Below are positions 3,352-12,393 of a DNA stretch of 64,000 nt, one piece after another (position 1 is the first letter of the stretch; the number at the start of each line of letters is the position of its first letter). The notes beneath the pieces were generated by a model that searched no databases, had not been told where the DNA came from, and worked only from the letters and a program-made list of their open reading frames with translations. The position numbers and the translations under genes were made by a program. The stretch comes from Opitutus sp. (lineage in GTDB: Bacteria; Verrucomicrobiota; Verrucomicrobiia; Opitutales; Opitutaceae), in the NCBI GenBank assembly GCA_024998815.1, contig JACEUQ010000002.1, forward strand, positions 1,068,501 through 1,132,500. The letters run 5' to 3'.

Positions 3352-4173
3352 TTACTGAAGCAACCGCAGCGCGGTTTGCGCACTCTGATTGGCCTGCGAC
3401 AACATCGAGGTGCCCGCCGAGACCATCGTATTCCAACGCGCCAACTGGGTGGACTCTTCGGCCACATCCACGTCGGTGATCCGACTGGTCGCCGCCTCCA
3501 GGTTAGCTTTATTCACTGTCAACAACTCCGAGGCGAAGCAGAGTCGGCTCTGTTCGGCGCCGTTTGAGGCGCGCATCGTCGCCACGTTTTCAATCGCGGT
3601 TTTCACAATATCGATCGAGGTGATCGCACTGAGCGAAGCAGCAGCACTAATGTTACCCACGCCCACAGTCGTGGTAGTAGAACCTAAATCTCTTCCCGAC
3701 AGCGTGATCTGACTGCTGGTGCTGGCATCCTCGGTCGCGTTCACCGTATTGGAGCCCGTGCCGAACAAGGCCACCCCGTTGAACTTTTCCGAGGTGATGG
3801 CGGTCAACTGGGTCTTCAACGCCACGAACTCGGTATTGTAGTTAGCCTTGTCACCGGTGCTCTTGGTGACGTCATCATTGAGCGTGCGCAGCTCGCTGAT
3901 ACGGTCGAGGATCTTGCCGGCCACCTTAAGGGCGCCGTCCTGTGTTTGCAGTAATGAAACGGCATTGCCGATGTTACTATTAACCGCGCCCTGGCGCTTG
4001 GCCGTGGCACTGAGTTTCATCGACACGGCCAGACCGCCGGCGTCGTCCGAAGGATTGACGATTTTCGAACCGCTGGAGAGCCGGTTCAGGCTCTTTTGCA
4101 GCATCGAACTGGAGGTCGCCAAGTTGTTGGAGGCCATTGTGGCCGTCTGATTAGTATTAAGTACGACTGTCAT
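3352..4173 (-). CDS. fliC: Flagellin (paralogue 1 of 7)
   Basis: Structural subunit of the flagellar filament, exported through the flagellar type III system. It has 273 residues, with the conserved N-terminal D0/D1 helices (NRLSSGSKIVNPSDDAGG at about residues 32-49) and C-terminal D1/D0 helices (ATSRITDVDVAEES, then NQSAQTALRLLQ at the end). The D2/D3 region is missing, so this is a minimal flagellin; only the middle (about residues 135-195) varies between paralogues. This copy has a cysteine in SRLCFASEL where all others have glycine. It is the last gene of the cluster, before the terminator, and is separated from paralogue 2 by an insertion element. Its own leader at 4174-4244 is intact, so it can still be translated if transcribed. 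Confidence 0.95.
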   Translation of the reverse strand: MTVVLNTNQTATMASNNLATSSSMLQKSLNRLSSGSKIVNPSDDAGGLAVSMKLSATAKRQGAVNSNIGNAVSLLQTQDGALKVAGKILDRISELRTLNDDVTKSTGDKANYNTEFVALKTQLTAITSEKFNGVALFGTGSNTVNATEDASTSSQITLSGRDLGSTTTTVGVGNISAAASLSAITSIDIVKTAIENVATMRASNGAEQSRLCFASELLTVNKANLEAATSRITDVDVAEESTQLARWNTMVSAGTSMLSQANQSAQTALRLLQ

Positions 4174-4244
4174 GGTAGTATCTTTCCTTGATTATTAATG
4201 CGACGTCCGTCGTCGCCACGAATCTGAAAGGGAGCGGCTCAGAT
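4174..4244 (-). promoter_or_regulatory. Structured flagellin leader 1 (putative CsrA-binding)
   Basis: Minus-strand RNA: stem ATCTGA/TCAGAT (4239-4244 with 4222-4227), then hairpin GCGACG-ACGGA-CGTCGC (4200-4216), then Shine-Dalgarno AAGGAAAG (about 4182-4189) and ATG. The ANGGA loop and the CAAGGA at the ribosome site match the core of CsrA sites. A further hairpin, GGAGTTTATACTCC, lies upstream. Confidence 0.7.
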
Positions 4245-4342
4245 CAAACCGTTCGGAGTATAAACTCCAAGTTGGCAATCCGATTCTGATAGGAATGGGA
4301 CGAAATGAGGTGTGTTTTATATATTATAGAACAGGCGAAAGT

Positions 4343-4365
4343 AGCGCAGACTTCCAGTCTGCTCC
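4343..4365. repeat. Family A half-palindrome; left copy of a 23-bp target duplication
   Basis: These 23 bases (core GCAGACTTCCAGTCTGC) are repeated exactly at 6186-6208, on the other side of the insertion element. Confidence 0.85.
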
Positions 4366-4415
4366 CTGGAGTTTGGCCCCAAAAGCAGGTGGATGCGAAG
4401 CGGCCGGAGGCCCGG

Positions 4416-5828
4416 TTACGCAGCGCGGAAGAGTGCTTCAGCCAAGAAGGGTGGCGCTTTTGATGAGTTCGTGGAGGGAGGGTCGGTCGACGTGAAGTCG
4501 GAGAAACTCTCTGGGGCGATCTGGTCGGCCCAGCATTCGCTGCGCAGGGTGCGCAAGAGGTCCCCCGTGGAACTGGTCGCAGGCGAGGCGCCCGAAGAGT
4601 GCGTGCGCCATTTGGGCGGGCGAAGATGCGGCGGCGGATCAGGGGTTTGCCCCGCAGGATCGCCGAAGAGCAGGGCGGCGATTAACAACAGCGCATAGGC
4701 GGCGACGGTGGCGGCGGGTTGGTTGCGGTTGGAGGCGGCGGTGCGCAGTTGTGCCTGGCCGGTGCCGATCAGGGTTTTCTCATCCCGGAAGTTTCCCTCG
4801 ATGCCCCAACGCCAGAGGTAATACTGGAGTTGGTCACCCACGGGCATATCCGGGTCGGTGCAAACCAAGAAGGCAGGCTGGCGATAGAGCAGCTTCGAGC
4901 CTGCGCGCAATCGGTAGCCCACCGGGGCGATCACCATGACTTGCAACGGGAGCGTCGCCCCGGCTTTACGCCACAGCACCGGCCCGAGGGTCTTGATTTT
5001 AAAGGTGTGCTTTTTTCCGGCCGCATAAGCCTCGACGCTTTGCCAGGCCACGGTGTCGTCGGTGCGCAGCTCTTCCGGGGTCTGGACCGGCGCGCCATAG
5101 ACCGGCGGGCGACCGGTGGCCGCGGGTGGTCCAGGCAGGGCGTTGAGCACGGCGTCCCGGCGGATCCGGCCGATATAAACGGTCTTGGCGGGCAGGCCCT
5201 TGAGTACGACCGCATTGGTGTAACTGCCATCGCCGGCGACCACCAGTTTGCGCGTGTCTGGCAGCGCCTGGCGAAGCTGCTGGATGCGGGCGAGCGCGAC
5301 GACATTAAGCCGCTGCTGTTTTTTCTTCTCCGTGTACTGCTGAACCTCGTCGGTAGTGGCTTTTTTACCCGGCTTTGGCGGCGTCGGCGCGTGGGTGAAA
5401 TCCACCGGAATCATCCGGGCGTGTCCGTCGGAACCAGGCCAGGCCGCAGAGAGTTGCACATAGCGCTGGCCGCGCACCAGGTTGGTTTGGAACGCGGGGC
5501 CGAGCGGATCGCGTTTCCAGCCGACGCCGTCGATCTTGACCCCGGTTTTGCGTACCAGGGTGTCATCGATGGCGGCCACCAACGGGGTAAGCGCCGGCAG
5601 GTTTACCTCAAGCTCATGGAGGACCGTGCGGAAAAGCCCCGCCGGCTTCACCCGGTCACGCGAATACAACCGGTAGTCGGCCGTCCAGTCCTGCTGGGCA
5701 CGCCCGCACAGACAAATCAGGTTGGTAAGAGTCCCCCGGCACGGTGAAACCAGTGCCGCCATGAGATGCCCCTGCAGTCTCCGGGCGCACTCGGGGGCGG
5801 CGCAAGCCGCAGCACAAGCCCGTTTCAT
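4416..5828 (-). CDS. IS4-type DDE transposase
   Basis: Predicted DDE transposase of about 470 residues. The catalytic aspartates are probably those in AAIDDTLVRK and VVAGDGSYTN, and the C-terminal block YYLWRWGIEGNFRDEK fits the IS4 signature Y-x2-R-x3-E-x6-K exactly. The open frame extends upstream to 5858, but the ATG at 5826-5828 overlaps the stop of the upstream AbrB-like gene as ATGA, which points to coupled translation, so this start is preferred. The frame is intact. It moves the element that separates flagellin genes 1 and 2. Confidence 0.85.
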   Translation of the reverse strand: MKRACAAACAAPECARRLQGHLMAALVSPCRGTLTNLICLCGRAQQDWTADYRLYSRDRVKPAGLFRTVLHELEVNLPALTPLVAAIDDTLVRKTGVKIDGVGWKRDPLGPAFQTNLVRGQRYVQLSAAWPGSDGHARMIPVDFTHAPTPPKPGKKATTDEVQQYTEKKKQQRLNVVALARIQQLRQALPDTRKLVVAGDGSYTNAVVLKGLPAKTVYIGRIRRDAVLNALPGPPAATGRPPVYGAPVQTPEELRTDDTVAWQSVEAYAAGKKHTFKIKTLGPVLWRKAGATLPLQVMVIAPVGYRLRAGSKLLYRQPAFLVCTDPDMPVGDQLQYYLWRWGIEGNFRDEKTLIGTGQAQLRTAASNRNQPAATVAAYALLLIAALLFGDPAGQTPDPPPHLRPPKWRTHSSGASPATSSTGDLLRTLRSECWADQIAPESFSDFTSTDPPSTNSSKAPPFLAEALFRAA

Positions 5829-6082
5829 AAGTCGTCCCAGCCGATCGGATAAACCCAACTGGACTTTTTTTTAACGCCTACGTCCACCAGCTCGGGCGTG
5901 ACCGGCATAACGGGCGCGACCAGACTGCGTGAGAGGACCAAATGATGCGCGTCGGTGACGGTCCACTCGACGGCCTCCGACTTGGCGAACCCCATCGTCT
6001 GGGCGATGGAAGCGGGTAATGTCACATACCACTGCTCACTGTTTTTGCGGATGATGCGCTGAACTTTGGTGGTGGTGCTCAT
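5825..6082 (-). CDS. SpoVT/AbrB-like small DNA-binding protein of the insertion element
   Basis: About 85 residues from the ATG at 6080-6082 (the frame is open further upstream to 6136). The segment VQRIIRKNSEQWYVTLP followed by AQTMGF and AVEWTVTDAHHLVLSRS fits a swapped-hairpin AbrB-type fold, as in MazE-like antitoxins and transition-state regulators. Its stop overlaps the start of the transposase (ATGA), so the two are probably made from one transcript. A plausible role is to repress or time transposase expression; that is inference. No toxin gene is nearby. Confidence 0.7.
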   Translation of the reverse strand: MSTTTKVQRIIRKNSEQWYVTLPASIAQTMGFAKSEAVEWTVTDAHHLVLSRSLVAPVMPVTPELVDVGVKKKSSWVYPIGWDDL

Positions 6083-6185
6083 GGTCCGACACCATCGTTC
6101 ATGGCCACGCTTTTTCCCATGGGCCCGACGCCCCATTTATCTCTACGGCCTTCTCCGGGCCAACTAGTCAGAGGCCAAACTCCAG

Positions 6186-6247
6186 AGCGCAGACTTCCAG
6201 TCTGCTCCGTCCTCAAACATGCAGGCTGGAAGCCTGCGCTACTTTTC
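6186..6247. repeat. REP-like palindrome, family A copy 2 (right part)
   Basis: It holds the right 23-bp target duplication (6186-6208) and the second hairpin GCAGGCTGGAAGCCTGC, ending GCGCTACTTTT. It lies about 30 bases past the stop of flagellin 2, where it could act as a 3'-end structure. The insertion element split this copy; the left remainder is at 4338-4365. Confidence 0.85.
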
Positions 6248-6275
6248 GGCGTATCCTACTATATAACGACCCGGC

Positions 6276-7094
6276 TTACTGCAGGAGCCGCAACGCGGTC
6301 TGCGCACTCTGATTGGCCTGCGAGAGCATCGACGTACCCGCCGATACCATCGTATTCCAACGCGCCAACTGGGTCGATTCCTCGGCCACATCCACGTCGG
6401 TGATCCGACTGGTCGCGGCCTCCAGATTGGCCTTGTTGACGGTCAACAGTTCCGAGGCGAAGCCGAGACGGCTTTGTTCGGCACCGTTGGAGGCGCGCAT
6501 GGTGGCCACGTTTTCGATCGCGGCTGTCACCGTGGAGATCGCCGTGATCATACTCAGCGCGGTGGCTGCGGTGACCGCGCCCATACCCGTAGCGGTGCTA
6601 GTCAAGTCACGAGCCGAAATCGATATCTGGCTGGCAGTGGAGGCGTCTTCGGTTGCGTTGACCGTGGCACCAGAGCTGGTTCCGAACATCGCTACACCGT
6701 TAAACTTCTCCGAGGCAATTGCCGTCAACTGACTGGATAATGCCACGAATTCGGTGTTATAGTTAGCCTTATCACCAGTGCTCTTGGTCACGTCATCATT
6801 GAGCGTGCGCAGCTCGCTGATACGATCGAGGATCTTACCGGCAACCTTGAGGGCGCCGTCCTGAGTTTGCAGCAGTGAGACCGCATTGCCGATGTTACTA
6901 TTAACAGCACCCTGGCGCTTGGCCGTGGCACTGAGTTTCATCGACACAGCAAGGCCGCCGGCGTCGTCGGAAGGGTTGACGATTTTCGAACCGCTCGAGA
7001 GCCGGTTGAGGCTCTTTTGCAGCATCGAACTGGAGGTCGCCAGGTTGTTGGAGGCTATAGTGGCCGTCTGATTGGTATTTAGTACGACTGACAT
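6276..7094 (-). CDS. fliC: Flagellin (paralogue 2 of 7)
   Basis: A 272-residue minimal flagellin with the same D0/D1 N- and C-terminal helices as the other copies; it ends NQSAQTALRLLQ. The variable middle is its own (SSGATVNATEDAST, TSTATGMGAVTAAT). About the first 70 codons and the whole leader are almost identical at base level to paralogue 3 (6887-7203 against 7966-8282), which points to a recent duplication or gene conversion. A family A palindrome follows the stop. Confidence 0.95.
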   Translation of the reverse strand: MSVVLNTNQTATIASNNLATSSSMLQKSLNRLSSGSKIVNPSDDAGGLAVSMKLSATAKRQGAVNSNIGNAVSLLQTQDGALKVAGKILDRISELRTLNDDVTKSTGDKANYNTEFVALSSQLTAIASEKFNGVAMFGTSSGATVNATEDASTASQISISARDLTSTATGMGAVTAATALSMITAISTVTAAIENVATMRASNGAEQSRLGFASELLTVNKANLEAATSRITDVDVAEESTQLARWNTMVSAGTSMLSQANQSAQTALRLLQ

Positions 7095-7165
7095 GGTAGT
7101 ATCTTTCCTTGATTTTGATTGCGACGTCCGTCGTCGCCACGAATCTGAAAAGGAGCGGCTCAGAT
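7095..7165 (-). promoter_or_regulatory. Structured flagellin leader 2 (putative CsrA-binding)
   Basis: Minus-strand hairpin GCGACG-ACGGA-CGTCGC (7121-7137), upstream stem ATCTGA/TCAGAT (7160-7165 with 7143-7148), and Shine-Dalgarno AAGGAAAG. A further hairpin, GGGCTTAAGCCC, lies upstream near 7178-7189. Confidence 0.7.
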
Positions 7166-7260
7166 CAAACCGTTCGGGGCTTAAGCCCTAAAGTGGATAT
7201 CCCGATTCCGATGGGAACAGGAGGAAATGGGTGTGAGTTTTTATATTATGAAACGGCCGA

Positions 7261-7325
7261 AAGTAGCGCAGACTTCCAGTCTGCTCCGTCCTCAAACCTG
7301 CAGGCTGGAAGCCTGTGCTACTTCT
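7261..7325. repeat. REP-like palindrome, family A copy 3
   Basis: Hairpins GCAGACTTCCAGTCTGC and GCAGGCTGGAAGCCTG inside GTAGCGC and GTGCTAC. It lies about 30 bases past the stop of flagellin 3. Confidence 0.85.
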
Positions 7326-7354
7326 CGGTCGATCCTGTTATATAACGAACCAAC

Positions 7355-8173
7355 TTACTGCAGCAGACGCAGGGCGGTCTGCGCACTCTGGTTGGCCTGC
7401 GAAAGCATCGATGTGCCCGCCGAGACCATCGTATTCCAACGCGCCAGCTGCGTGGATTCCTCCGCCACGTCCACGTCGGTGATCCGACTCGTCGCCGCCT
7501 CCAGGTTGGCTTTATTCACCGTCAACAGTTCCGAGGCGAAGCCGAGCCGGCTTTGCTCGGCGCCGTTGGACGCACGCATCGTCGCCACGTTTTCGATCGC
7601 GGTTTTCACCGTGTCGATCGAGGTGATTGCACTGAGCGAGGCCGCCGAGGTGATCGCCCCCACCCCGCCGCTGGAGGTGTTGCCCAAATCGCGACCCGAG
7701 ACCGTGATCTGGGTGCTGGTGCTGGCGTCCTCGGTAGCGAACACCGTGCTGGTGGTGCTGCCGAACAAGGCCACGCCGTTGAATTTCTCCGAGGTGATCG
7801 CCGTGAGCTGACTCTGCAACGCCGTAAACTCGGTGTTGTAGTTGGCCTTGTCGCCGGTGCTCTTGGTGACGTCATCGTTGAGCGTGCGCAGCTCGCTGAT
7901 ACGGTCCAGGATCTTGCCGGCCACCTTAAGCGCACCATCCTGGGTTTGGAGCAATGAAACGGCGTTGCCGATGTTACTATTAACAGCACCCTGACGCTTG
8001 GCCGTGGCACTGAGTTTCATCGACACAGCAAGGCCGCCGGCGTCGTCGGAAGGGTTGACGATTTTCGAACCGCTCGAGAGCCGGTTGAGGCTCTTTTGCA
8101 GCATCGAACTGGAGGTCGCCAGGTTGTTGGAGGCTATAGTGGCCGTCTGATTGGTATTTAGTACGACTGACAT
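7355..8173 (-). CDS. fliC: Flagellin (paralogue 3 of 7)
   Basis: A 272-residue minimal flagellin with conserved D0/D1 ends. Its variable middle (STTSTVFATEDAST, GNTSSGGVGAITSA) is close to that of paralogue 4, while its N-terminal codons and leader match paralogue 2. The gene is therefore a mosaic, as expected from exchange within a tandem family. It is followed by family A palindrome copy 3. Confidence 0.95.
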   Translation of the reverse strand: MSVVLNTNQTATIASNNLATSSSMLQKSLNRLSSGSKIVNPSDDAGGLAVSMKLSATAKRQGAVNSNIGNAVSLLQTQDGALKVAGKILDRISELRTLNDDVTKSTGDKANYNTEFTALQSQLTAITSEKFNGVALFGSTTSTVFATEDASTSTQITVSGRDLGNTSSGGVGAITSAASLSAITSIDTVKTAIENVATMRASNGAEQSRLGFASELLTVNKANLEAATSRITDVDVAEESTQLARWNTMVSAGTSMLSQANQSAQTALRLLQ

Positions 8174-8244
8174 GGTAGTATCTTTCCTTGATTTTGATTG
8201 CGACGTCCGTCGTCGCCACGAATCTGAAAAGGAGCGGCTCAGAT
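8174..8244 (-). promoter_or_regulatory. Structured flagellin leader 3 (putative CsrA-binding)
   Basis: The hairpin at 8200-8216 has loop ACGGA, the upstream stem is 8239-8244 with 8222-8227, and the Shine-Dalgarno is AAGGAAAG. The sequence is identical to leader 2. Confidence 0.7.
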
Positions 8245-8341
8245 CAAACCGTTCGGGGCTTAAGCCCTAAAGTGGATATCCCTAGTCCGTTGGGAATGGG
8301 ATGAAATTGGGTTTAGGGATTTTATATAGGGAACGGTCGAC

Positions 8342-8402
8342 AAGTGGCGCAGGCATCCTGTCTTCTTGTAACTCAATCCTGCAGGCTGGAAGCCTGCGCT
8401 AC
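8342..8402. repeat. REP-like palindrome, family A copy 4 (degenerate)
   Basis: The right half (GCAGGCTGGAAGCCTGCGC) is intact; the left hairpin is mutated (GTGGCGCAGGCATCC). It lies about 30 bases past the stop of flagellin 4. Confidence 0.7.
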
Positions 8403-8434
8403 GTGCCGGCCGTTATATTATATAAATAATCTAA

Positions 8435-9253
8435 TTACTGCAGGAGCTTTAGTGCGGTCTGTGCACTCTGGTTTGCCTGCGTGAGCATCGAGGTGCCCGC
8501 CGAGACCATCGTGTTCCAGCGCGCCAACTGGGTGGACTCCTCGGCCACGTCGACGTCGGTTATCCGACTCGTCGCGGCCTCTAGGTTCGCCTTGTTTATA
8601 GTCAACAACTCCGAGGCGAAGCCGAGCCGGCTCTGTTCGGCGCCGTTGGTCGCGCGCATCGTCGCCACGTTTTCGATCGCTGTTTTAATCGTATCAATCG
8701 AGGTGATCGCACTGAGCGAGGCCGCCGTGGTAATCGCACCCACGCCGCCGCTGGTGGTATTACCCAAATCGCGCCCCGAGACCGTGATCTGGGTGCTGGT
8801 GCTGGCATCCTCGGTCGCATACACCGTGCTGGTGCTGCTTCCGAACAGCGCAATACCGTTGAACTTCTCCGAGGTGATCGCCGTCAACTGGCTCTTCAAC
8901 GCGAGGAACTCGGTATTATAATTTGCCTTGTCGCTGGTGCTCTTGGTGACGTCATCGTTGAGCGTGCGCAGCTCGCTGATGCGGTCCAGGATCTTGCCGG
9001 TGACTTTCAGGGCGCCGTCCTGGGTCTGCAGCAGTGACACCGCATTGCCTATATTGTTATTAACCGCGCCCTGGCGCTTGGACGTAGCGCTGAGTTTCAT
9101 CGACACGGCAAGACCACCGGCGTCGTCCGAGGGATTGACAATTTTGGAACCGCTGGAGAGCCGGTTCAGGCTCTTTTGCAGCATCGAACTTGAAGCCGCC
9201 AGGTTGTTCGAGGCCATAGTGGCCGTCTGATTGGTATTAAGTACGACTGACAT
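8435..9253 (-). CDS. fliC: Flagellin (paralogue 4 of 7)
   Basis: A 272-residue minimal flagellin with the usual D0/D1 ends (NRLSSGSKIVNPSDDAGG and NQSAQTALKLLQ). It has the SATSKRQGAVNNN variant of the N-terminal helix that is also seen in paralogue 5. The gap to paralogue 5 upstream is only 133 bases and holds no family A palindrome, so 5 and 4 may share a transcript. Its leader hairpin has different base pairs from leaders 1-3 but keeps the GGA loop. Confidence 0.95.
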   Translation of the reverse strand: MSVVLNTNQTATMASNNLAASSSMLQKSLNRLSSGSKIVNPSDDAGGLAVSMKLSATSKRQGAVNNNIGNAVSLLQTQDGALKVTGKILDRISELRTLNDDVTKSTSDKANYNTEFLALKSQLTAITSEKFNGIALFGSSTSTVYATEDASTSTQITVSGRDLGNTTSGGVGAITTAASLSAITSIDTIKTAIENVATMRATNGAEQSRLGFASELLTINKANLEAATSRITDVDVAEESTQLARWNTMVSAGTSMLTQANQSAQTALKLLQ

Positions 9254-9321
9254 GGGAGTATCTTTCCTTGATTTTGTTATACGACTTCCGGAGTCGCCAC
9301 GGATCGGGAGAGGCCCCGATC
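9254..9321 (-). promoter_or_regulatory. Structured flagellin leader 4 (putative CsrA-binding)
   Basis: Minus-strand hairpin GCGACT-CCGGA-AGTCGT (9281-9297), and upstream stem GATCGGG/CCCGATC (9315-9321 with 9302-9308). Both stems differ in sequence from leaders 1-3 but still pair. Confidence 0.7.
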
Positions 9322-9386
9322 AGGCCGTTATGAAAAAGGGACGGAAAGCGGGTCCACCGGGGTGGCCCCGCGCCTATACTCATTTA

Positions 9387-10205
9387 TTATTGCAACAACT
9401 TGAGTGCCGTCTGCGCACTCTGGTTGGCCTGCGAGAGCATCGAGGTGCCCGCAGAGACCATCGTATTCCAACGCGCCAACTGGGTGGATTCCGCTGCCAC
9501 GTCCACATCGGTAATGCGGCTGGTGGCGGCCTCCAGGTTGGCCTTGTTGATGGTCAATAATTCCGAAGCAAAACTGAGCCGGCTTTGCTCGGCGCCGTTG
9601 GTGGCTCGCATGTTAGCCACGTTTTCCAGCGCGGTGGTAATCGTCGAAATCGAGCTGATGGCGCCGAGCGAAGTCGCTGCGGTGACCGCCCCCACACCCG
9701 AGCTCGTATGCGTCAAATCACGTGATGCCAGTGAAATCTGGCTGCTAGTCGCGCCATCCTCGGTGGCATTGACCGTTTGCGCGGAACTGGTGCCAAACAG
9801 CGCCACTCCGTTGAACTTCTCCGAGGCAATCGCGGTCAACTGGCTCTGCAGGGCCAAAAACTCGGTATTATAATTTGCCTTGTCGCCAGTGCTCTTGGTG
9901 ACGTCGTCATTGAGGGTGCGCAGCTCGCTGATGCGGGCCAGAATATTGCCGGCCACCTTCAGTCCGCCATCCTGCGTTTGCAGGAGCGAAACCGCGTTGC
10001 CGATGTTATTATTAACCGCGCCCTGGCGTTTGGATGTGGCGCTGAGTTTCATCGAGACGGCCAGACCGCCGGCGTCGTCAGAGGGGTTTACGATTTTGGA
10101 TCCGCTCGAGAGCCGGTTGAGGCTCTTTTGCAGCATGGAACTGGAGGAGGCCAGATTGTTGGCCGCCATCGTCGCTGAATAGTTGGTATTTAATACAACA
10201 GACAT
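9387..10205 (-). CDS. fliC: Flagellin (paralogue 5 of 7)
   Basis: A 272-residue minimal flagellin that begins MSVVLNTNYSATMAANNLA, a variant N-terminus shared with paralogue 6. It has conserved D0/D1 helices; the variable middle contains SSAQTVNATEDGAT and THTSSGVGAVTAAT. It carries DVAAESTQLARWN where paralogues 1-4 have DVAEEST. The family A palindrome at 10335-10397 lies upstream of its leader, next to the stop of paralogue 6. Confidence 0.95.
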   Translation of the reverse strand: MSVVLNTNYSATMAANNLASSSSMLQKSLNRLSSGSKIVNPSDDAGGLAVSMKLSATSKRQGAVNNNIGNAVSLLQTQDGGLKVAGNILARISELRTLNDDVTKSTGDKANYNTEFLALQSQLTAIASEKFNGVALFGTSSAQTVNATEDGATSSQISLASRDLTHTSSGVGAVTAATSLGAISSISTITTALENVANMRATNGAEQSRLSFASELLTINKANLEAATSRITDVDVAAESTQLARWNTMVSAGTSMLSQANQSAQTALKLLQ

Positions 10206-10273
10206 GGGAGTATCTTTCCTTGATTTATAACCGCGACATCCGTCGTCGCCACGGATCAGGAGGGGTCCTGATC
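10206..10273 (-). promoter_or_regulatory. Structured flagellin leader 5 (putative CsrA-binding)
   Basis: Minus-strand hairpin GCGACG-ACGGA-TGTCGC (10233-10249) with one G-U pair, and upstream stem GATCAGGA/TCCTGATC (10266-10273 with 10254-10261). Confidence 0.7.
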
Positions 10274-10334
10274 AGGCCTTGGAATATCTAATATAAAGGG
10301 GGTGCGCTCATCGCTGAACGCGAGGGGGCGTTAT

Positions 10335-10397
10335 AGTAGCGCAGACTTCCAGTCTGCCCGAATTTACAAACCAGCAGGCTGGAAGCCTGCGCTACTT
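10335..10397. repeat. REP-like palindrome, family A copy 5
   Basis: Hairpins GCAGACTTCCAGTCTGC and GCAGGCTGGAAGCCTGC bracketed by AGTAGC and GCTACT. It lies about 10 bases past the stop of flagellin 6. Confidence 0.85.
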
Positions 10398-10406
10398 TAT
10401 AAAAAA

Positions 10407-11225
10407 TTACTGCAACAGCTTGAGTGCGGTCTGCGCACTCTGGTTGGCCTGCGAGAGCATCGAGGTGCCCGCCGAGACCATCGTATTCCATCTTGCCAAC
10501 TGGGTGGATTCCTGGGCCACGTCCACATCGGTAATGCGGCTGGTGGCGGCCTCCAGGTTGGCCTTGTTGATAATCAAAAGTTCCGAGGCGAACCCGAGCC
10601 GGCTGAGCTCGGCGCCGTTCGCGGCCCGCATGTTGGCCACATTTTCCAAGGCAGTGTTAATCGTTGTAACCGATGTAATTGCACTGAGAGAAGCGGCTGC
10701 CGTGACCGCCCCCACACCGGTGCTGGTGTGACCCAAATCACGGGTTACGATGGCAATCTGACTGCCGGTTGAACCATCCTCGGTTCCATTGACCGTCATG
10801 TTTGAGGCGGTGCCGAACATGGACACCCCGTTGAACTTTTCCGAGGTGATCGCGGTGAGCTGCAACTGCAGGGCGGCGAACTCTGTATTATAATTGGCCC
10901 GGTCCCCCGTGCTCTTGGTCACGTCATCATTGAGTGTTCTCAGCTCGCTGATGCGGGCCAATATATTGCCGGCCACCTTAAGGGCGCCGTCCTGGGTTTG
11001 GAGTAATGAAACGGCGTTGCCGATGTTATTATTAACCGCGCCCTGGCGTTTGGCGGTGGCGCTGAGTTTCATTGCGACGGCCAGACCGCCGGCGTCGTCG
11101 GAGGGGTTTACTATTTTTGAACCGCTGGAGAGCCGGTTGAGGCTCTTTTGTAACATCGAACTCGACGTGGCCAGGTTGTTGGCCGCCATCGTCGCCGAGT
11201 AGTTGGTATTTAATACAACAGCCAT
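10407..11225 (-). CDS. fliC: Flagellin (paralogue 6 of 7)
   Basis: A 272-residue minimal flagellin that begins MAVVLNTNYSATMAANNLA. The D0/D1 helices are conserved, with small changes at usually fixed positions (GGLAVAMKLS, GAELSRLGFASELLIINK). The variable middle has SNMTVNGTEDGSTG. It uses DVAQESTQLARWN. The protein should still polymerise; the substitutions are conservative. Leader 6 precedes it and a family A palindrome follows the stop. Confidence 0.95.
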   Translation of the reverse strand: MAVVLNTNYSATMAANNLATSSSMLQKSLNRLSSGSKIVNPSDDAGGLAVAMKLSATAKRQGAVNNNIGNAVSLLQTQDGALKVAGNILARISELRTLNDDVTKSTGDRANYNTEFAALQLQLTAITSEKFNGVSMFGTASNMTVNGTEDGSTGSQIAIVTRDLGHTSTGVGAVTAAASLSAITSVTTINTALENVANMRAANGAELSRLGFASELLIINKANLEAATSRITDVDVAQESTQLARWNTMVSAGTSMLSQANQSAQTALKLLQ

Positions 11226-11293
11226 GGGAGTATCTTTCCTTGATATTTTTACACGACATCCGGTGTCGTCACGGATCCGGAGCGGTCCGGATC
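11226..11293 (-). promoter_or_regulatory. Structured flagellin leader 6 (putative CsrA-binding)
   Basis: Minus-strand hairpin ACGACA-CCGGA-TGTCGT (11253-11269), fully paired although three of its six pairs differ from leader 1. Upstream stem GATCCGGA/TCCGGATC (11286-11293 with 11274-11281), then hairpin GGGGCGCTGCCCC. Confidence 0.7.
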
Positions 11294-11448
11294 AGGCTAT
11301 GCAGGGGCAGCGCCCCTTTTGTTGGGATTTATAAAGTGCAGGGCGGAGGAGCCGCCCGAGGCAACCGGCCAGGTGGGAAACCCACCGCTTTATCCCCCCG
11401 TCGGCCCGCCCGCGCCTGAGGCGAAGGCGGCGGACGCGGTGGTTACGA

Positions 11449-12267
11449 TTAGCCCTGTAGCAGCTTGAGCGCGGTCTGCGCGCTTTGATTGGCCTGCGAG
11501 AGCATCGAGGTGCCTGCCGAGACCAGCGTGTTCCACCGGGCGAGATTGGTAGATTCTTGAGCCACATCCACATCGGTGATCCGACTGGTGGCGGCCTCGA
11601 GGTTGGCCTTGTTGATCGTCAACAGTTCGGAGGCGAAGCCCAGGCGGCTTTGCTCGGCGCCGTTGGAAGCGCGCATGTTGGCGACATTTTCCAGGGCGGT
11701 GGTCACATCGGTCAGCAGCAGGCCGGTCAAGCTGGTGGCGGTGGTGGCGATGGCGCCGATGCCACCTGAAGTGCTGGACAAATCGCGGGCGGCAACCGTC
11801 ACGGCGGAGGAGGTCGATGCGTCCTCGGTGGTGGCGATCGACATGGTGCTGGTGCCGAACAGGCTGATGCCGTTGAACTTCTCGCTGGTGAGCGCAGTCA
11901 ACTGAGCCCGCAGGGACATAAATTCGGTGTTATAGTTATCCTTGTCGCTCGTGCTCTTGGTCACATCGCTGTTGAGCACCTTCAGCTCGCTGATGCGGGC
12001 CAGGACGCTGCCAGTGACTTTCAGCGCGCCGTCCTGGGTCTGCAGGAGGGAAACCGCGTTGCCGATGTTGTTGTTGACCGCACCCTGGCGCTTGGCCGTG
12101 GCGCTGAGCTTCATGGATACAGCAAGACCGCCCGCATCGTCAGAAGGGGAAACGATCTTCGAGCCGCTAGAAAGCCGGTTAAGGCTCTTCTGCAGCATGC
12201 TATTGGACGTGGCTAAGTTATTCGAAGCGACCGTAGCCGCGTAATTGGTGTTAATGACGACAGACAT
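11449..12267 (-). CDS. fliC: Flagellin (paralogue 7 of 7, first in transcription order)
   Basis: A 272-residue flagellin and the most divergent copy. It begins MSVVINTNYAATVASNNLA, has SKIVSPSDDAGG, a shifted variable middle (TTATSLTGLLLTDVTTALENV) and ends KLLQG with an extra glycine. All D0/D1 features remain. It is the promoter-proximal gene: a sigma-28-type promoter lies about 100 bases upstream, and no other flagellin leader shows as clear a match. Divergence plus position suggest it may be the founding copy or one made at a different stage (inference). Confidence 0.95.
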   Translation of the reverse strand: MSVVINTNYAATVASNNLATSNSMLQKSLNRLSSGSKIVSPSDDAGGLAVSMKLSATAKRQGAVNNNIGNAVSLLQTQDGALKVTGSVLARISELKVLNSDVTKSTSDKDNYNTEFMSLRAQLTALTSEKFNGISLFGTSTMSIATTEDASTSSAVTVAARDLSSTSGGIGAIATTATSLTGLLLTDVTTALENVANMRASNGAEQSRLGFASELLTINKANLEAATSRITDVDVAQESTNLARWNTLVSAGTSMLSQANQSAQTALKLLQG

Positions 12268-12337
12268 GATGTTTTCTTCCTTGATTAAACGACCCTGTCC
12301 GTAGGGCGACGGGCCGAAGAAGGATTCGGGCCGATCC
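12268..12337 (-). promoter_or_regulatory. Structured flagellin leader 7 (putative CsrA-binding)
   Basis: Minus-strand hairpin with stem CCCT/AGGG, extended by C-G and G-C pairs past a bulged T, and loop ACGGAC (12293-12306). The upstream stem from GGATC and GAATCC has a bulged A (12322-12337). Shine-Dalgarno CAAGGAAG. A 5' hairpin CTGAGGGAAACCCCTCAG lies at 12340-12357. Confidence 0.65.
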
Positions 12338-12366
12338 AGCTGAGGGGTTTCCCTCAGATGCCTATA

Positions 12367-12393
12367 ATAACGACGCTTTCGGCGGAAACTTTA
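12367..12393 (-). promoter_or_regulatory. Sigma-28 (FliA)-type promoter of the flagellin cluster
   Basis: Minus strand: TAAAGTTT (12386-12393) is an exact match to the sigma-28 -35 consensus. After 11 bases comes GTCGTTAT (12367-12374), 5 of 8 against GCCGATAA. Transcription would begin near 12360, just before the first leader hairpin, giving a leader of about 93 bases. Confidence 0.65.

Follow-up and report, generated by a model that had tools for sequence, protein, structure and literature searches.

The window analysed here, a 64,000-nucleotide stretch of an Opitutus sp. genome, carries a tandem array of seven flagellin genes (fla1 to fla7), each preceded by a leader with several paired elements (Table 1). 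The flagellin paralogues of the tandem array are related to one another. The genome as a whole contains 16 leader-bearing flagellin genes (7 + 8 + 1, the seven of the window included) and a 17th flagellin-like gene, located after csrA, that has no leader; the "seven-gene filament set" of a preliminary description of this DNA is therefore too small. The repeats between the flagellin genes were examined as a possible component of the system and discarded, because 322 copies are spread over the whole genome. Upstream of fla7, a pattern match to what we take to be the sigma-28 consensus revealed a putative promoter, TAAAGTTT-N11-GTCGTTAT (the figure for this pattern is 54/277, without a shuffle control). 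It would place the 5′ end of the fla7 mRNA just before hairpin H1, and the leader is estimated at about 90 nt.

Table 1. Flagellin genes, leader elements and putative promoter in the window (SD, Shine-Dalgarno; p, pseudoknot; E, match to a covariance model whose training set was 64 leaders, those of the window included)
Feature	Position	Strand	Size or elements	Motifs and remarks	p	E
fla1 flagellin	3352-4173	(-)	273 aa			
fla1 leader	4185..4268	(-)	H1 4255-4268; pseudoknot 4221-4251; H3 4200-4216; SD 4185-4190	S1 CGGT/GCCG; S2 GATCTGA/TCAGATT; H3 loop ACGGA; SD CAAGGA	0.03	2.5e-24
fla2 flagellin	6276-7094	(-)	272 aa			
fla2 leader	7106..7188	(-)	H1 7177-7188; pseudoknot 7142-7172; H3 7121-7137; SD 7106-7111		0.07 (borderline)	8.5e-26
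fla3 flagellin	7355-8173	(-)	272 aa			
fla3 leader	8185..8267	(-)	H1 8256-8267; pseudoknot 8221-8251; H3 8200-8216; SD 8185-8190	sequence identical to fla2 leader; pseudoknot p as for fla2	borderline	8.5e-26
fla4 flagellin	8435-9253	(-)	272 aa			
fla4 leader	9265..9326	(-)	pseudoknot 9302-9326; H3 9281-9297; SD 9265-9270; no clear H1	S1 GGCC/GGCC; S2 GATCGG/CCGATC; H3 loop CCGGA	0.03	6.9e-20
fla5 flagellin	9387-10205	(-)	272 aa	Flagellin_N + Flagellin_C		
fla5 leader	10217..10278	(-)	S2 stem 10254-10278; H3 10233-10249; SD 10217-10222	S1 reduced to 2-3 pairs; pseudoknot unsupported	0.26	7.2e-21
fla6 flagellin	10407-11225	(-)	272 aa			
fla6 leader	11237..11316	(-)	H1 11304-11316; S2 stem 11274-11298; H3 11253-11269; SD 11237-11242	H3 loop CCGGA; S1 weak; pseudoknot unsupported	0.56	5.3e-19
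fla7 flagellin	11449-12267	(-)	272 aa			
fla7 leader	12278..12357	(-)	H1 12340-12357; possible pseudoknot 12312-12337; H3 12290-12308; SD 12278-12283	S1 GGAT/ATCC with S2 CCGA/TCGG; H3 bulged, loop ACGGAC; pseudoknot not significant	0.26	6.9e-17
Sigma-28-like promoter	12367..12393	(-)		upstream of fla7; pattern match		

All seven leaders contain a hairpin with a CGGA loop, H3, ending 22-27 nt before the ATG, and a CAAGGA Shine-Dalgarno sequence ending 10-11 nt before it. Both had been reported in the preliminary description, and re-reading of the sequence returned the same stem and loop letters for copies 1-7 and the same second upstream stem in copies 1-6. GGA is present in the loop of the leader hairpin in 172/175 family leaders; in relatives the loop reads ACGGA in 147 of 172 leaders, the Shine-Dalgarno sequence is CAAGGA in 169, and the distance from the GGA of the H3 loop to that of the Shine-Dalgarno sequence is 18-22 nt in 156, a range suitable for the bridging of two sites by a CsrA dimer. 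In leaders from other families, the scan did not find H3 in 16 of 80. The leader might be a mere stabilising or spacing structure of strongly expressed mRNAs, with GGA loops that reflect the shared descent of paralogues and not CsrA: conserved loops can be inherited within such a related array, and the presence of the leader is inseparable from that of flagellin within the family. However, loop and Shine-Dalgarno sequence remain constant while the stems vary over many families, and in the phylum's other classes AAGGA was found in the loop of the scan's hairpin in 15/20 flagellin leaders (an uncontrolled count, in which two of the 15 overlap the Shine-Dalgarno sequence), which makes descent without CsrA highly improbable as an explanation.

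In relatives, the leader elements follow in the order hairpin H1, H-type pseudoknot (S1 crossing S2), H3 and Shine-Dalgarno sequence, with covarying helices; the pseudoknot lies directly 5′ of H3, behind H1. The second stem, which had been suggested to be a further regulatory element, was thus right in kind but incomplete, being in relatives the S2 helix of this pseudoknot. In leaders with p<=0.2 the median geometry is 2 for L1, 0.5 for L2, 6 for L3, 4 for S1 and 6 for S2. A pseudoknot scan tied to H3, written after an unconstrained one, gave p<=0.05 in 95/172 family leaders. In 27 other families, 34 of 64 leaders reached this level. Of the control GGA hairpins, chosen under a stem rule stricter than that applied to the leaders, 11/248 did so. 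By the unconstrained scan, at most 2 of 40 shuffles were as good in 25/71 leaders, and no copy of the window was among the best 5%. Four of the 13 distinct leaders in the window's own genome reached p<=0.05, and the copies of the window are uneven, fla1 and fla4 being significant, fla2 and fla3 borderline, and fla5, fla6 and fla7 not significant. The statistical strength of the leader comes from the relatives, not from the seven window copies alone. Folding energy was not taken as evidence, because the seven leaders have ordinary z-scores (-0.43 to -1.66).

For these scans, leaders identical over their last 60 bases were counted once, and 96 rows from named loci were pooled with the window's family, their membership being assumed. 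Left out before the H3-tied scan were L047 (too short), L066-L072 (before fliW-linked flagellin-like genes), L118, L127, L130, L141 and L150 (wrong start or no flagellin), and L145 and L209 (start not found), as well as, from the named loci, L235 and L258 (too short) and L274, L279 and L286 (no full start); L161-L166 were inspected only. Seventeen of the 20 leaders from other classes were scanned (L316, L322 and L323 were dropped), with the hairpin picked by eye for L310 and L311.

The covariation proposed from the window copies proved significant with more leaders, for H3 and for the upstream helices, above a tree-aware null that was our own simulation and not R-scape. A set of 213 leaders was thinned to 147, in which, taken together, only two H3 pairs were significant. 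The 147 leaders were then divided according to their H3 and Shine-Dalgarno motif, giving 76 of class A and 71 of class B, since the register in which S1 and S2 align differs between the two classes; this division was chosen after the result for all 147 was seen. At the pair level, class A gave E values of 0/400 and 0.003 for S2 pairs and 0.022 for an H1 pair; single S1 pairs in this class were not significant (best E 0.36). At the helix level, for which stacks had to pass a pairing filter, S2, H1 and S1 reached 0/60 and H3 0.017 in class A; in class B, H3 and S1 reached 0/60 and no significant S2 helix was found. Pair counts were 91.4% paired versus 80.3% in shuffled and 25-41% in slid comparisons. 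In class A, the crossing helices S1 and S2 each covary, which fits a predicted H-type RNA pseudoknot.

Covariation of both helices would also be expected of a two-state switch, in which S1 and S2 are alternative hairpins and CsrA chooses between them: with S1 formed, the 3′ arm of S2 would be free to pair with the Shine-Dalgarno sequence (OFF), and formation of S2 would free it (ON). Consistent with this, the second stem does not form in the minimum-energy fold of fla1-3, computed without pseudoknots; the Shine-Dalgarno region lies instead in a helix with bases 5′ of H3, among them the 3′ arm of S2. In fla5 and fla6, S2 overlaps the remnant of S1. However, the leaders that are significant in the scan use different bases for S1 and S2, and their arrangement fits the H-type geometry, which would permit both helices in a single molecule. 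L3 has only 3% G in family f1, where the segment around it has 29%, a composition that suits an unpaired loop, and is A-rich outside f1. A role of L3 as anti-Shine-Dalgarno, prompted by the fla1-3 fold, was dismissed as a general property, since in 175 leaders shuffled L3 sequences were as complementary to the Shine-Dalgarno region as the real ones (mean rank 0.51). A pair of alternative hairpins is thus unlikely, and the pseudoknot is the preferred reading of S1 and S2.

Of 1092 initial candidates in the window's own genome, the best 150 were scored with the covariance model, and those with E<=1 were the 16 flagellin leaders and no other site; over 128,511 bases, the window included, all 24 model sites (Infernal, default filters) were flagellin leaders. 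Among genomes drawn from the class, 40 had a model match; in nine of these (L152-L160; E 5e-4 to 5e-3) it was counted as false, not being before a flagellin, and a second match in one genome (L130 in G232) was rejected on the same ground. All 31 class-draw genomes with a leader match before a flagellin encode fliW; the class-draw counts are to be read as "at least", since scoring covered 10 candidates in each genome. Seventeen of the 18 family genomes lacking fliW also have no flagellin domain; therefore leader, flagellin and fliW come and go together, and their co-occurrence is not independent support for a link between leader and fliW. In G225, a 95% complete genome, a GGA hairpin is present in a flagellin leader (L200), and no fliW was found. 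A search of the window against Rfam 15 at gathering threshold returned a single tRNA and no match to the leader, and lax thresholds over the array and 31 loci from this genome and relatives gave only weak matches below gathering scores.

Both regulators expected from the preliminary description were found side by side by a search of the window's own genome: csrA (81.5 bits; an ORF of 87 aa) and the adjoining fliW (106.8 bits), in the gene order flgN-flgK-flgL-fliW-csrA-flagellin-like. The best PDB match of CsrA is 1t3o, followed by the CsrA chain of 5dmb, and the Arg of the I-x-R-K-E motif is kept; the best match of FliW is chain A of 5dmb, flagellar assembly factor FliW. The order ends in fliW-csrA-flagellin, as it presumably does in Bacillus subtilis. 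Unlike B. subtilis, with hag as its one flagellin, the flagellin-like gene after csrA has no leader here and the regulated flagellins lie in distant arrays. We know of no pseudoknot in the B. subtilis hag leader.

The adjacent csrA and fliW, the covariation, the loop motif, the Shine-Dalgarno site and the spacing all support the CsrA-FliW feedback suggested earlier, in which binding and repression are predicted from sequence. We therefore propose, with a probability of about three in four, that a CsrA-FliW feedback switch acts on the structured leader of each flagellin mRNA. The CsrA and FliW steps are inferred by likeness to B. subtilis and Campylobacter jejuni. A CsrA dimer would grip the H3 loop, span some 20 nt to reach the GGA in the Shine-Dalgarno sequence and block ribosomes; upon flagellin export, FliW would be freed and take CsrA off, and the flagellin mRNAs would be translated together. 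Less certainly, the 5′-terminal H1 and the pseudoknot before H3 may shield the mRNA against decay while it is repressed and prevent mispairing of the H3-Shine-Dalgarno region, so that stored flagellin mRNA could be released quickly. Protection and scaffolding are the job we favour for the pseudoknot, and these roles of H1 and pseudoknot are suggested by position only.

The pseudoknot may instead be a sensor domain of its own, responding to a small molecule, a ribosomal protein or a flagellar protein as a second input to flagellin translation. The loops of known small-molecule aptamers are conserved in sequence, unlike those of the pseudoknot, which show no sequence conservation in 76 class A leaders, and we consider such a sensor distinctly unlikely. 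It would account for a position 5′ of the site where translation is controlled and for conservation over many families, some with shared unpaired letters, as in family f38, where GTGAGGTC...CAAA is shared outside the pairs; FliW alone binds the B. subtilis hag leader weakly, according to the excerpt of PMC6529632. A broader proposal, possible if rather doubtful, is that the leader represents an undescribed Verrucomicrobiota RNA family in which the pseudoknot is more than a scaffold and acts as a second regulatory domain in its own right. Flagellin translation would then be set both by FliW-CsrA, acting at H3 and the Shine-Dalgarno sequence, and by a further signal read by the pseudoknot (stability, ribosome standby, ligand or protein). 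Several families also seem to have two pseudoknots in tandem and the Shine-Dalgarno sequence in a hairpin loop.

For the switch favoured here, the described CsrA targets offer close parallels, with the same loop motif on a stem, Shine-Dalgarno site and spacing (excerpts of PMC7652899 and PMC4894983). According to the parts of PMC4894983 available to us, the C. jejuni flaA leader likewise presents ANGGA twice, in a stem-loop and at the ribosome-binding site, and has FliW as antagonist, and compensatory changes among species are reported there; its 5′UTR, however, is 45 nt with two stem-loops, whereas the leader here is an estimated 90 nt or so, stands before 16 genes, and has an extra 5′ hairpin and, in relatives, the H-type pseudoknot. 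In B. subtilis hag, CsrA similarly occludes the Shine-Dalgarno sequence and FliW antagonises it (excerpts of PMC6529632 and PMC7652899). The E. coli glgC leader resembles the present one in having a high-affinity GGA hairpin just upstream and a lower-affinity Shine-Dalgarno site bridged by one CsrA dimer, but the gene differs, the antagonists are sRNAs and not FliW, and the excerpt of PMC7652899 describes no pseudoknot.

From the portions of PMC4894983, PMC6529632 and PMC7652899 available, CsrA-FliW control of flagellin has been established in a small number of Firmicutes and in Campylobacter. The comparative evidence places it in Verrucomicrobiota as well, where one switch would release 16 flagellin genes together. 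Our search of the literature and Rfam found nothing resembling a pseudoknotted flagellin leader, nor a description of a pseudoknot beside a CsrA hairpin; flagellin output is thus probably governed by a feedback switch of known type, built on an RNA fold that is new. With a compact, conserved pseudoknot beside the candidate CsrA site, what flanks such a site and determines its strength becomes directly testable.

Hairpin H3 with its CGGA loop and the Shine-Dalgarno CAAGGA were read at the described places in the window sequence in all seven flagellin leaders (fla1 to fla7), and the stems and loops of the preliminary description proved correct. Its second stem (here S2) was present as described in copies 1-6; it is not the whole element, however, as an alignment of relatives (those with names being Opitutaceae and other Verrucomicrobiota) showed that S2 is crossed by another stem, S1, whose loop contains the 5′ arm of S2. 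In leader L042, CAGCGC/GCGCTG crosses GTCCG/CGGAC, and in leader L062, GGGTG/CACCC crosses TGCTGAC/GTCGGCA. From 5′ to 3′ the predicted leader in relatives consists of a hairpin (H1), the S1/S2 pseudoknot, H3, the Shine-Dalgarno and ATG. The larger finding is a conserved, predicted pseudoknotted leader around a putative CsrA site; this structure stands out in relatives and has partly degenerated in the window. Both fla5 and fla6 have a longer S2, with S1 reduced to two or three pairs. The folding energies of the seven window leaders taken alone were ordinary.

Covariation was assessed with more leaders against a tree-aware simulation, and was significant for S2 and H1 pairs in 76 class A leaders, the classes being split by H3 and Shine-Dalgarno motif. 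The five top column pairs were all model pairs (E of 0/400, 0.003 and 0.21 for S2, 0.022 for H1 and 0.36 for S1). Among stacks of five pairs, counted only after passing a pairing filter, S2, H1 and S1 each gave 0/60, and the value for H3 was 0.017; the first stack not belonging to the model came next, with an E of 2.6. When class A was aligned without regard to structure, pair counts showed 91.4% of cells paired versus 80.3% when shuffled and 25-41% when slid; the covariation score was 0.380 versus 0.191, with 151 versus 57 double changes. In class B (71 leaders), the H3 and S1 stacks gave 0/60 and S2 was absent from the stack results, and with all 147 leaders pooled the significant pairs were limited to two H3 pairs.

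An alignment-free scan looked for pseudoknots whose end lies 0-8 nt before H3 and set each leader against 60 dinucleotide shuffles of itself. It was positive at 0.05 in 95 of 172 leaders counted with the window's family; among 64 leaders of 27 further families in the order and class, 34 were positive, and these 34 fall in 20 of the families. The counts are not independent trials because the leaders are related. In 16 more of the 80 leaders outside the window's family H3 was missing, and the scan left these out. As a control, 248 GGA hairpins at other sites of the window and in the csrA region were given the same scan upstream, with 11 positives (4.4%); it was positive in 5 of 17 leaders from other classes. 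The pseudoknot passed in 4 of the 13 distinct leaders of the window's genome (see table), and p was 0.07 for fla2/3, 0.26 for fla5 and fla7 and 0.56 for fla6. The pseudoknot loop L3 holds 3% G in family f1, where the segment as a whole has 29%; in the other families it holds 51% A, versus 28% for the segment. A stem with a GGTCC-type core lies 5′ of the GGA hairpin in four leaders from other classes (L307, L308, L309 and L318), and the scan found no significant H-type pseudoknot in it. As to function, we infer, and favour, that the pseudoknotted leader would protect the repressed flagellin mRNA and scaffold H3; the rival readings are that S1 and S2 form a two-state switch, or that the pseudoknot is a separate sensor.

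Of the 175 different leaders assigned to the family, in which 96 named loci are included on assumption, 172 showed a GGA-loop hairpin in the scan. Among these 172, the H3 loop was ACGGA in 147, CCGGA in 13 and AAGGA in 6, CAAGGA served as Shine-Dalgarno in 169, and the two GGA motifs lay 18-22 nt apart in 156. In class A, loop CGGA and CAAGGA are invariant, and an outer H3 pair is altered on both sides in nine leaders. These features fit the pattern of known CsrA targets, which have ANGGA in a hairpin loop and a site overlapping the Shine-Dalgarno (PMC7652899, PMC4894983). In other classes of the phylum, uncontrolled counts gave a GGA-loop hairpin in 20 of 20 flagellin leaders, and AAGGA in a hairpin loop in 15 of them, two of the 15 being the Shine-Dalgarno itself.

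The genome holding the window (4.24 Mb, 3 contigs) contains one csrA and one fliW, as the proposed CsrA-FliW switch supposed, and the two adjoin in the order flgN, flgK, a gene for a Flagellin_N protein at the flgL position, fliW, csrA and a flagellin-like gene. This last gene, the 17th flagellin match (31% identity to fla5), occupies the position that hag has in B. subtilis. The other 16 flagellins share 79-100% identity with fla5. The last leader of the second array is identical to that of fla1 over the 115 bases compared, which suggests a recent array duplication.

Flagellin genes and associated features of the genome
Feature	Position	Strand	Remark
Flagellin set 1	window		seven genes
Flagellin set 2	C1:656693-664858		eight genes
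Second array locus (L033)	G000:C1:656393-664900		holds the eight genes of set 2; mirrors the window array
Flagellin set 3	C1:1733969-1734781		one gene
Leaders passing the pseudoknot scan	C1:1734781 (lone leader)		also fla1, fla4 and one further fla2-like leader
Divergent flagellin-like gene, 292 aa	L035:5059-5937	(-)	directly after csrA; without structured leader
DDE_5 transposase-like ORF, 480 aa	window 4416-5858	(-)	between fla1 and fla2
Small ORF, no Pfam match	window 5825-6136		between fla1 and fla2, with the DDE_5 ORF
GTAGCGCAGACTTCCAGTCTGC-like repeats, inverted pairs	e.g. window 6184-6245, 7262-7324, 10335-10397		between flagellin genes

A single draw from the class comprised 384 genomes, with 10 leader candidates scored per genome; a flagellin domain was found in 96, fliW in 86 and a leader match at E ≤ 0.01 in at least 40. 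Nine of these 40 matches were false by context, and all 31 genomes that remained carry fliW. Ten genomes had a flagellin domain but no fliW, and none of these gave a leader match among the candidates scored; one of them, G225 (95% complete), does carry a structured flagellin leader with a GGA hairpin (L200), and fliW was looked for there and not found. In the window's family, leader and fliW were both present in 20 of 38 genomes and both absent from 18; 17 of these 18 also lack a flagellin domain, and therefore this co-occurrence shows only that leader, flagellin and fliW travel together. Taken comparatively, CsrA-FliW control of the flagellin leaders through putative CsrA binding is well supported. 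The ORF behind an f38 leader (L143) starts somewhat flagellin-like and soon diverges, and is perhaps a frameshifted gene.

A covariance model trained on 64 leaders drawn from the family and the order, window leaders included, matched the 16 flagellin leaders at E ≤ 1 and no other site in the genome, among the best 150 of 1092 first-look candidates. With default filters, all 24 matches in 128,511 bases (the window, the eight-gene array, the csrA region and the arrays of three relatives) were flagellin leaders, with none in the csrA region. In Rfam 15, the sole window match above gathering score was a tRNA elsewhere, and lax thresholds gave weak matches only. Such a pseudoknotted flagellin leader was not found described in the titles and abstract openings listed from the open-access literature, a scope that makes this no proof of absence from print.

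A sigma-28-like pattern occurred in 54 of 277 leader strings (an uncontrolled count) and ended 96-107 nt before ATG in 22 of the 25 matches listed; the mRNA would therefore begin just before H1. Read by eye, families f28, f32, f43 and others seem to have a second pseudoknot upstream in the leader, and seem to present the Shine-Dalgarno in a loop of its own, e.g. GACTC-AAGGAAA-GAGTC. Nine leaders of other families (L171, L194, L195, L197, L199, L206, L210, L213 and L216) apparently carry two tandem pseudoknots, the GGA hairpin, a small hairpin and the Shine-Dalgarno in a hairpin loop.

The DDE_5 ORF and the small ORF look like an insertion within the array of flagellin genes. The GTAGCGCAGACTTCCAGTCTGC-like repeat has 156 + 166 genome copies within one mismatch and the reversed control has none; these repeats are therefore a dispersed palindromic repeat family.
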